Assembly: GCF_024584515.1 (NCBI RefSeq) | Contig: NZ_CP102173.1 | Location: forward strand, 3,596,001-3,660,000 | Length of the DNA stretch: 64,000 nt | Direction of reading: 5' to 3' | DNA from: Aeromicrobium wangtongii | GTDB lineage: Bacteria > Actinomycetota > Actinomycetes > Propionibacteriales > Nocardioidaceae | In this document: piece by piece, positions 25,694 through 57,319 of the stretch | How positions within the stretch are numbered: position 1 is the stretch's first letter | Layout: each line of letters begins with the position of its first letter | Notes under the pieces: generated by a model | What the model saw: only the letters and a program-made list of their open reading frames with translations | The model's database searches: none | What the model was told of the DNA's origin: nothing | Position numbers and translations under genes: made by a program

Positions 25694-27984
<2,291 letters not shown>

Positions 27985-27993
27985 CCACCCCCT

Positions 27994-28077
27994 CCGCGAG
28001 TGGCGCAGTGTGGACGTTCTGAGACGGCGTGTCGTCCGAATTTGCGCCACTCGGGGGCGCTTTTGCGCCACTCGCGG
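27994..28077 (+). repeat. 84-bp palindromic element, copy A1
   Basis: This is one of three gap-free 84-bp copies in the window (the others are 56101-56184 and 57236-57319 reversed). It starts CCGCGAGTGGCG and ends CGCCACTCGCGG, and has an internal TTGCGCCACTCG, so the left arm can pair with either of two right arms. The core GACGGCGTGTCG is invariant in all copies. By hand it matches copy A3 at about 65 of 84 positions. It fills the gap between the dienoyl-CoA reductase stop and the DUF1697 start. Confidence 0.88.
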
Positions 28078-28091
28078 GGGATACTGACCAG

Positions 28092-28616
28092 ATGAGCAGC
28101 CAGATCGTCCTGCTGCGGGCCGTCAACGTCGGCGGCGCGCAGCTGCCGATGGCCGATCTGCGCGCGATCGCGGGCGAGCTCGGTGCCACCGACGTCTCGA
28201 CGTACATCGCCTCGGGCAATCTGATCGCCGACGTCCCGGGCCTTCCCGAGACGTTCAACCGTGCGCTCGAGAAGACCATCCAGGAACGGTTCGGCTTCTT
28301 CCGCGAGGTCATCTCCCGCACCCCTGCCGAGGTTGCCGCAGCACTGGAGGCGCACCCGTTCGAGGTGCTCGAGCCGAAGTACTCCTACGTCACGTTCCTG
28401 GCGGGCGAACCCACCGCCGAGGCGATCGCGAAGGCCGAGACGTACGAGACGGGCGACGACCGGTGGCAGGTCATCGGGACCGAGATGCACATCCGCTACG
28501 CGAACGGTGCCGGTCGGCCCGAGATGAAGGGCGACTCGATCGGCCGCGCCCTGGGCGTGCCCGGCACCGCACGCAATCTCAACACCGTCCGCAAGCTGAT
28601 CGACCTCGCCGGCTGA
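28092..28616 (+). CDS. DUF1697 domain protein
   Basis: This 174-residue protein matches DUF1697 throughout: IVLLRAVNVGGAQLPMADLR at the start, TYIASGNLI, the FEVLEPKYSYVTFL strand, and RNLNTVRKLIDL at the C-terminus. The domain is widespread in bacteria and resembles an RNA- or nucleic-acid-related alpha/beta fold; function is not established. ATG 28092 begins the conserved domain. The frame continues open through the 84-bp element upstream (from 28029), so a 21-residue repeat-encoded N-terminal extension is possible but unlikely. Confidence 0.9.
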   Translation: MSSQIVLLRAVNVGGAQLPMADLRAIAGELGATDVSTYIASGNLIADVPGLPETFNRALEKTIQERFGFFREVISRTPAEVAAALEAHPFEVLEPKYSYVTFLAGEPTAEAIAKAETYETGDDRWQVIGTEMHIRYANGAGRPEMKGDSIGRALGVPGTARNLNTVRKLIDLAG

Positions 28617-35676: not shown

Positions 35677-35709
35677 CTGGTGCCTCCAGGTCAGCGGAAC
35701 TCGGCTGAC
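35677..35709 (-). promoter_or_regulatory. Likely translational expression platform of the serA riboswitch
   Basis: Between the riboswitch and the serA start there are two small stems. GTCAGC/GCTGAC pairs 35690-35695 with 35704-35709. CTGG/CCAG pairs 35677-35680 with 35686-35689, with the GGAGG ribosome-binding site (35683-35687) reaching into the stem. No terminator-like U-run is present, so control at the level of translation initiation is more likely than attenuation. Confidence 0.45.
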
Positions 35710-35713
35710 GTGG

Positions 35714-35790
35714 GGCCCAGGCGAACGGTCCCGATGTCGTGTGTCGCAGTCGCTCCCCGGTGGTACCCACCTGAACGCCAGTCGCGTCTG
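35714..35790 (-). promoter_or_regulatory. ZTP riboswitch (pfl motif) upstream of serA
   Basis: Read on the minus strand the leader contains CGCGACTGGCG, then GGTGGGTACCACCGGGGAGCG, then after a loop CCGTTCGCCTGGGC. These are the conserved first half (GACUGGCG, stem, ACCACCGGGGAGCG) and second half (CCGnnCGCCUGGGC) of the ZTP-sensing pfl RNA, in correct order and spacing. The RNA senses the folate-deficiency signal ZTP/AICAR and raises expression of one-carbon and purine genes; serine synthesis is a known type of target because serine feeds folate one-carbon units. Confidence 0.88.
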
Positions 35791-35816
35791 CTTGGCCGCC
35801 AGTCTAGCGGCGACTC

Positions 35817-56100: not shown

Positions 56101-56184
56101 CCGCGAGTGGTGGATTCTGGGGATTCTGGGACGGCGTGTCGTCCGAGCTTGCACCACTCGGTCACCGGTTTGCACCACTCGGAC
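56101..56184 (+). repeat. 84-bp palindromic element, copy A2
   Basis: Aligns without gaps to A1 (27994-28077) and to the reverse complement of A3 (57236-57319). Versus A3 I count 72 of 84 matches, with the core GACGGCGTGTCG invariant. It lies just downstream of the DUF559-like gene and supplies its last codons and stop (56162). It is inverted relative to A3. Its right end (GGAC) differs from the GCGG of the other two copies, suggesting partial decay. Confidence 0.88.
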
Positions 56185-57154
56185 GTGGGGGGCGCGGTGG
56201 CTCGTCCCGGACGAACCGCAGCAACCGGGTGCTGAGCTGCGCCTGTCCGATCCGGCTCACGGACGCGCGCCGCGCCTCCGCCCGCCACACGTCCAGGCGT
56301 CCGGGCAGGTGCGGGAGCCCTGCGGCGTCCTCGGCGTCCCGGACGATCAGCTCCGGCGCCCGGAGGATCTCGCTGGCGATGTAGCCATAGCGCTGCAGGC
56401 CCGACCGGGCGAGCATCTTCTCGCGCCGCAGGTCGTCCTGGTGCCGGATCCGGTCGCGGTGGTCGGCGCCGTCGTACTCGGCGGCCCGGTTCGTCCCGCG
56501 GATCCGCAGGTCGACCCGCGCCACCTCGACCCCGGCAGCATTGAGCACCACGTGCTGCGGATCGACCGGGATGCCCGACAGCTCGTGCAGCAGGCGCAGC
56601 ATCGTCTCCCACCACGACTCGCTACGTCCGTCCGCCAGCGGCAGCGCGCGGCGCAGCACGCGGACGCCACGCCGTCCCGGTCGCATCGTGGCCCGGATGC
56701 GCTTGACCGAGGTGTGCCCCAGGTACAGCGCCGAGTCGATCACCGCGACGAGATCGAGCAGTGCCAGGTGCTCGGCGAGCTCGACGATCGTCCACTCCGC
56801 CGACGCCAGCGGGACGTCGTCGAACCGCTCCCGGTGACCGGGCGGGATGTCGCAGCGCCGGACGTACACCCCACGCCGGTCCAGATGAACCCCCTCGCCG
56901 GAGGTGCACGCGATGACGGGACGCTGCTCGTCGAGCATCGGCAACCACCAGCCACGCACCTCCGCGCTGGTGAGGTGGGTGAACACGGCGTCGTCCGGGA
57001 GCATGACTGCGATGGCTCGGCAGGTCGACGGCAGGTGGTCGGCGGTGGTGGCCAGCTGCGAGACGCCGGCGACCGGGTGCGTGAACCATCGGCTGCGCAG
57101 GATGTCCGGGCTGAATCCGCGATCCTCGGCGTCGCGGTGGCGAATGGGGTCCAT
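56162..57154 (-). CDS. DUF559 / AbiEi-like endonuclease-domain protein
   Basis: This 330-residue protein has an N-terminal helical region like AbiEi-type winged helices (PDDAVFTHLTSAEVRGWWLP near residues 52-71). Its C-terminal part resembles the DUF559 restriction-endonuclease-like fold: VARVDLRIRGTNRAAEYDG (residues ~213-231), then HRDRIRHQDDLRREKMLARSG, giving a D-x(n)-E-x-D-like core. Such genes are numerous in actinobacterial genomes and of uncertain role (defence, toxin-antitoxin or mobile). Start ATG 57154. Its stop codon lies inside repeat A2 and its promoter region contains A3, so the repeat frames the gene on both sides. Confidence 0.8.
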   Translation of the reverse strand: MDPIRHRDAEDRGFSPDILRSRWFTHPVAGVSQLATTADHLPSTCRAIAVMLPDDAVFTHLTSAEVRGWWLPMLDEQRPVIACTSGEGVHLDRRGVYVRRCDIPPGHRERFDDVPLASAEWTIVELAEHLALLDLVAVIDSALYLGHTSVKRIRATMRPGRRGVRVLRRALPLADGRSESWWETMLRLLHELSGIPVDPQHVVLNAAGVEVARVDLRIRGTNRAAEYDGADHRDRIRHQDDLRREKMLARSGLQRYGYIASEILRAPELIVRDAEDAAGLPHLPGRLDVWRAEARRASVSRIGQAQLSTRLLRFVRDEPPRPPRPSGANR

Positions 57155-57235
57155 CGGACCACGGTCGAGCCGCCCGCCCGGGACCCGCCACGTCCGTCGT
57201 ACCGGCTGTGGACGCGCCGGCGCTGTCCACAACGA

Positions 57236-57319
57236 CCGCGAGTGGTGCATTCCCGACACCGAGTGGTGCAAGCTCGGGCGACACGCCGTCTCAGAATCCC
57301 CAACATCCACCACTCGCGG
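57236..57319 (-). repeat. 84-bp palindromic element, copy A3 (reverse orientation)
   Basis: Copy A3 reads on the minus strand in the same gap-free register as A1 and A2. It lies upstream of the DUF559-like gene (its end is 81 bp from the ATG) and 27 bp before the MOSC start. In this copy the left arm is CCGCGAGTGGTG and both right arms carry the compensating TGCACCACTC, keeping pairing possible. Confidence 0.88.

Follow-up and report, generated by a model that had tools for sequence, protein, structure and literature searches.

The 84-bp repeat that occurs three times in a 64,000-nucleotide stretch of the Aeromicrobium wangtongii genome (contig NZ_CP102173.1, positions 3,596,001 to 3,660,000; hereafter the window) is a covarying hairpin that stands at both ends of a nuclease-like gene, P0001, and alone across the genome. 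The arrangement suggests that soil bacteria carry a type of selfish, jumping DNA not described so far. We consider it probable that gene and repeats form a mobile family that resembles repetitive extragenic palindromes and their RAYT genes (REP/RAYT), in which a nuclease of the homing-endonuclease type replaces the HUH transposase. A preliminary description of the window was right on the repeat, but overlooked what matters most, the gene enclosed by copies A2 and A3.

Element A2 (56101..56184, plus strand) lies at the 3' end of P0001 and contains its stop codon (56162-56164). Element A3 (57236..57319, minus strand) lies at the 5' end of the gene and is inverted relative to A2. P0001 itself (56162..57154, minus strand; the start codon is our choice) encodes 330 amino acids, and the whole unit of A2, P0001 and A3 measures 1219 bp (56101..57319). 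It lies between two genes identified by Pfam as Ribosomal_S6 (rpsF) and MOSC. Structure prediction, with fold matches obtained by VIA-align, gives residues 1-174 an AbiEi-like fold and residues from about 176 to 281 the fold of a Vsr/EDxHD homing-endonuclease-like nuclease domain; P0001 is a probable DNA-cutting protein. Residues E183, D215, E226, D228, H232 and D241 are invariant in 16 aligned rows and are candidates for the catalytic E, D, H and D of EDxHD homing enzymes such as I-Bth0305I.

The association of gene and element holds across the genus. A P0001 homologue (E <= 1e-20) was detected in 16 of 49 Aeromicrobium genomes, at 20 gene loci, and at all 20 of them matches to a covariance model of the element flank the gene on both sides. 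The flanking elements clearly point inwards at 18 of these loci. L189 and L190 have weak flanking matches of 30-50 bits, with almost equal scores on the two strands. At L187 the left copy reaches 48 bits, and the right copy at L185 is cut by the contig end. Elements are present in 16/16 genomes with the gene versus 8/33 without it (Fisher 2.2e-7, uncorrected for kinship). Comparison of the flanks of nine units revealed seven positions without detectable mutual similarity. Another 15 inverted element pairs were tested as candidates for decayed units and rejected: none showed P0001 homology at E below 0.02, and they look like chance pairs.

The three window copies align without gaps over 84 positions, as had been described. 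The third of them, A1 (27994..28077, plus strand), is a solo element that follows an FMN/FAD oxidoreductase gene, whose stop is at 27984, and precedes a DUF1697 gene, which begins at 28092. The geometry of the element is fixed: a left arm GAGTGGYGCA, 35 nucleotides, a middle arm TGCRCCACTC, 11 nucleotides and an outer arm TGCRCCACTC, that is, two right arms with a period of 21 bp. Copies with another arm spacing would escape the search pattern. The A1 hairpin (27998..28052, plus strand) is made of a left arm at 27998-28007 and a middle arm at 28043-28052, and the outer right arm (28064..28073, plus strand) is a direct repeat of the middle arm at the 21-bp period. The ends of the 84-bp element are 14-bp terminal inverted repeats: the consensus starts with CCGCGAGTGG and ends with CCACTCGCGG, as found in A1 and A3, the right end of A2 being imperfect.

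Variants of the element exist as well. Four-arm forms of 97 bp occur in the A. wangtongii genome (L005:1484-1580 and L009:1484-1580); among 50 matches to a lenient four-arm pattern, these two only have two fully complementary 11-bp spacers. At L211-L213 (G068, G007 and G060, genomes in which no P0001 homologue reaches E <= 1e-20) variant elements carry a nested CCCGCCACTC/GAGTGGCGGG hairpin instead of the loop. A known RNA family was rejected as an identity of the element, since Rfam at the gathering threshold matched in the window only a ZMP/ZTP riboswitch (35708-35795, minus strand, 49.7 bits); no tRNA or tmRNA was found.

The preliminary description had noted that A1 has C at position 11 and G at both 53 and 74, whereas A2 and A3 have T at the first and A at the other two, from which it deduced selection on a paired structure or on a repeated protein site. 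The linkage of the three positions holds in a larger set of 101 copies (C/G/G 65, T/A/A 26, T/G/A 5, T/G/G 4, C/A/A 1). This set was obtained from 192 element readings, which were reduced to 180 (by left arm and length), to 105 (at 85% identity) and to 101 after removal of reverse readings of palindromes; it was built without 13 loci, one of which (L148) is from Aeromicrobium. Compensatory change between left and middle arm supports the deduction. In an 18-bp stem of these two arms we counted 190 compensatory cells versus a shuffled mean of 101 (standard deviation 9.9; reached by 0 of 500 shuffles), a statistic that, like the others on covariation given here, ignores the relatedness of the copies. 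In the true register 83.8% of the cells pair; when the partner was slid to other registers, compensatory cells fell to 37-89 and paired cells to 31-50%. The covariation score of the stem was 0.242 versus 0.135 after shuffling. The number of stem pairs changed on both sides (9, reached by 396 of 500 shuffles) and the number of further pair types (37, reached by 92 of 500) did not exceed the shuffles, so the support for the stem comes from the compensatory cells and the covariation score. In A1 the register joins 27998-28015 with 28035-28052 around a 19-nucleotide loop, and 13 of the 18 pairs form from A1's own letters, one of them G-T.

A core sequence said to be invariant is so in the three window copies, but not in general: GACGG stands in the loop of 50 of the 101 non-redundant copies. 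The 12-base core alone is uninformative (39 window matches at up to two mismatches versus 38.3 expected). The left arm and the outer arm were rejected as the main stem, because no consistent extended covariation was seen beyond the arm (largest excess 52 versus 37.9 expected, at one pair). Element folds are more stable than shuffled sequence, and when A1, A2 and A3 are each folded as DNA at minimum energy, the left arm pairs with the outer arm. Two alternative hairpins are therefore conceivable, and it is possible that the element switches between them.

The arms also follow the resident unit. Solo copies share the arm type of a unit in the same genome in 93 of 110 cases from 16 genomes (shuffled mean 63.6, P 0.0008, for the loci at hand). 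G008 and G034 each hold two units of different type, and both arm types are present. In a 17-protein tree, the genes with the TG arm type (L178, L187 and L188) make up a single clade; the tree covers 17 of the 20 genes, the interrupted L179, L183 and L186 being omitted, and the TC type of G008 was not entered.

Further copies had been expected in the genome and in relatives, and they were found. With A2 as query, 11 places were matched in the A. wangtongii genome at E <= 0.01, including A2 itself, A3 (E 3.8e-24) and A1 (E 3.7e-12). The same query matched 16 of 58 genomes (the query genome included), all of the same genus. The covariance model, built from the copies, has matches in 24 of the 49 Aeromicrobium genomes. 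A pattern scan of the genome collection yielded at least 120 stretches, and among the matches listed all but ten belong to Aeromicrobium, Nocardioidaceae or, for one genome, an actinobacterium. The ten from other taxa (L097, L098, L122, L127, L135, L147, L149, L153, L160 and L165) were rejected: five are tandem 21-bp repeats and four more have no visible 84-bp element, with L098 outside the comparison. Carriage by phages was likewise rejected, the one pattern match in IMG/VR being a 21-bp tandem repeat.

Mapped relative to genes, the copies are mostly intergenic and mostly at gene 3' ends. Among 161 intergenic copies, 58 lie between convergent and 16 between divergent genes, and the stop codon of a gene pointing at the element is a median 12-30 bp away (29 of 190 copies, inside called open reading frames, were excluded; the gene calls were home-made). 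A fixed orientation relative to the upstream gene was rejected by count (left+/right+ 49, -/- 38). Positions just past stop codons and between convergent genes, together with the stable folds, would suit elements that act as RNA at gene 3' ends, in transcription termination or mRNA end protection, that are spread otherwise and that bracket the nuclease gene by accident. We regard this as unlikely, however: a copy stands on each side of the gene at every locus found, the arm type follows both the gene clade and the resident unit, four paralogues each have their own hairpin (see below), and no T-run follows the hairpin in A1, A2 or A3.

Sites with and without the unit, or a solo copy, were found in related genomes. 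From rpsF to the MOSC gene the intergenic region spans 1360 bp in A. wangtongii and 1354-1407 bp in nine other unit-bearing loci, versus 138 bp without the unit in L269 (rpsF 96% identical) and 177-210 bp in L274-L277 (15 of 29 MOSC loci were compared, those with rpsF found). Subtracting the 1219-bp unit from 1360 leaves 141 bp, close to the 138 bp of L269, and the genome of L269 (G063) carries its unit at another place, L182. For solo elements, five aligned sites differ in whether a copy is there, the difference being least clean at the fifth. At the A1 site, compared in 30 of 45 matched genomes, the 84-bp element occurs in 2/30 loci (our own included); in 8/30 the corresponding stop codon is followed by unrelated sequence with a stem of score >= 12, and 20/30 score below 12. 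Behind this oxidoreductase stop codon (window 27984; L386-L415) hairpins differ between species, like a hotspot for such elements.

That orthologous sites can lack the element, or that one site can hold hairpins of unrelated sequence, would not be expected if the hairpins were operators and P0001 an AbiEi-like repressor with a nuclease tail, which autoregulates via the upstream copy and perhaps regulates the neighbours of solo copies. In favour of such a role, A3 precedes the start codon that we chose by about 80 bp, the N-terminal part of P0001 is AbiEi-like in its predicted fold, one paralogue matches AbiEi models (E 1.1e-9), and the promoters of AbiEi antitoxins contain inverted repeats to which the antitoxins themselves bind (PMC7319586). 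Yet there is a second copy at the other end of the gene at 20/20 loci, and the copies sit mostly at gene 3' ends, with just 16/161 intergenic ones between divergent genes. An operator role thus appears improbable.

The arrangement recurs with other genes. The A. wangtongii genome encodes four distant paralogues, which are 23-28% identical to P0001; each is flanked on either side by hairpins of its own, and five nuclease-hairpin pairs were seen in this genome. The DUF559-like paralogue genes L168:1286-2422, L170:1332-2481 and L171:1266-2444 each lie between an inverted pair of their own hairpin type. The hairpin of L171 occurs at 8 places in the genome and that of L169 at 21 places (E below 1e-5), in both cases with two of them being the flanks of the gene. 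The latter is a second dispersed hairpin family, CGCTGGGCCTGACG...CGTCAGGCCCAGCG (L169:1418-1490, L324 and 19 other places in this genome), flanking a different DUF559-like gene; the ACGGCGTGTC motif of the 84-bp element recurs in some loops of this family, although the stems are unrelated.

A profile search detected further family members in the A. wangtongii genome besides the four paralogues, and matches in 85 of 97 sampled genomes of the order (Propionibacteriales). Flanking inverted similarity (score >= 45) was observed for 43/71 family genes versus 10/212 controls and 6/400 cross-locus pairs (Fisher 1.7e-22), and stems of score >= 12 on both sides for 36/71 versus 8/212. The 71 family loci comprise 27 from the profile search (L222-L224, of P0001 type, omitted), 40 further non-Aeromicrobium loci from the upper part of its list and the four paralogues. 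The 212 controls comprise 180 from 8-kb loci chosen for an element match, among which P0001-type genes may still be present, and 32 genes that neighbour family genes; any resulting bias would raise the control rate. In a sample of the phylum, family members were present in 30 of 119 genomes, and 8 of the 25 loci subjected to the flank test (out of 29, owing to length and contig ends) passed it; beyond the order, the pattern is therefore weaker or the test less sensitive. In G150, from a distant family of the same phylum, a DUF559-like gene (L382) lies between two near-identical hairpins, AACTTCGGGTGATTAGTGTCGC and its complement.

These pairs bear on a further explanation, in which the unit is carried passively: the 84-bp ends would be recognised in trans by some other transposase or recombinase, and P0001 would be cargo, for example a defence nuclease. 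The 14-bp terminal inverted repeats are like those of miniature inverted-repeat transposable elements (MITEs), and the paralogues resemble AbiEi proteins of a defence library. But the P0001 family is enclosed again and again, the paralogues carry different ends, and the 15 other, chance-like element pairs hold no P0001 homologue. In addition, no Y1 (HUH) transposase was found in the genome (0 matches to PF01797, with the control search positive in 5 of 14 genomes; the search did not extend to further types of transposase or recombinase), so a RAYT is not available there as the mobiliser. A passenger unit is, in our estimate, quite improbable.

RAYTs are thought to move or copy REPs. The elements described here are, like the REP repeats that PMC3116915 associates with RAYT genes, short, dispersed and extragenic palindromes, and the gene is flanked by the same repeats at 20/20 loci. 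They differ in that the gene encodes an AbiEi-Vsr-like nuclease and not a Y1/HUH transposase, and in that the element is fixed at 84 bp with three arms. The GTAG or CGTC tag that PMC3733652 places at one end of REP/RAYT repeats is not found at the ends of the 84-bp consensus, where CGTC occurs in the loop only; actinobacterial names have 0 occurrences in PMC3733652. Its predicted Vsr-like nuclease fold likens P0001 to the EDxHD homing endonuclease I-Bth0305I, which, as PMC3943268 reports, dimerises on a target of nearly 60 bp, whereas here the gene lies between two hairpins, an AbiEi-like DNA-binding part is present and solo repeats are dispersed. AbiE type IV toxin-antitoxin systems share the AbiEi-like fold predicted for residues 1-174, and a paralogue matches AbiEi models by sequence. 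Unlike these systems, P0001 is fused to a nuclease domain, and its window neighbours are rpsF and the MOSC gene, with no AbiEii toxin gene among the two (Pfam). MITEs of DDE insertion sequences are also short, non-coding and bounded by terminal inverted repeats, and they too are related to the ends of a unit that carries a gene, but the gene here is not a DDE transposase, and the element has an internal third arm and a covarying stem. No target-site duplication was seen, the flanks being too diverged to read.

We propose that a small family of mobile DNA uses the 84-bp repeat both as its recognition site and as its ends. A complete unit would be one gene between two inverted copies, and the solo copies would be its non-autonomous offspring, MITE- or REP-like. 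The AbiEi-like part of the gene product would grip the repeated GAGTGGYGCA arms, which look like binding sites for it because AbiEi binds two 23-bp inverted repeats (PMC7319586). The Vsr/EDxHD nuclease domain would nick or cut the DNA, and host repair or replication would complete the copying. We infer that the protein binds and cleaves DNA and causes the elements to move; acting on its own hairpins, the nuclease may move or copy both the unit and the solo hairpins.

Several observations weigh against this proposal. Eight genomes without the gene still hold elements, and A. wangtongii itself is the main exception to the arm-type matching, the solo type agreeing with the unit in 2/11 cases. Ten genomes have the unit at the same rpsF-MOSC position, which shows that it does not move often. 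The site differences are between species, movement within one strain was not seen, target-site duplications are not readable in the diverged flanks of the compared sites, and the absence of an element could also mean loss. The AbiEi match of P0001 has a root-mean-square deviation of 5.6. Finally, 28 of the 71 family genes at the level of the order are below the flanking-repeat threshold (one, L171, has a pair by eye), and 17 of the 25 phylum loci fail the flank test.

We lean slightly towards a broader reading, a widespread and undescribed class of mobile one-gene units in Actinobacteria, in which an AbiEi-Vsr (DUF559-like) nuclease bracketed by a private hairpin scatters solo hairpins just behind stop codons. 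A single genome would house many such families, each nuclease specific for its hairpin, and they would be able to compete for the same landing sites. In its presumed working the gene-hairpin system is REP/RAYT-like, but its enzyme is not the one that defines that family. In the portion of the open PMC literature covered (subscription journals and preprints lie outside this scope), neither a link of DUF559 genes to hairpins nor a description of this gene-hairpin system was found. If the proposal is true, the many orphan genes of the large DUF559/AbiEi-like family would gain a function, and REP-like selfish repeats would have arisen with a second, unrelated enzyme. It would also provide natural nuclease-hairpin pairs, whose specificity would be readable from the arms and directly testable.
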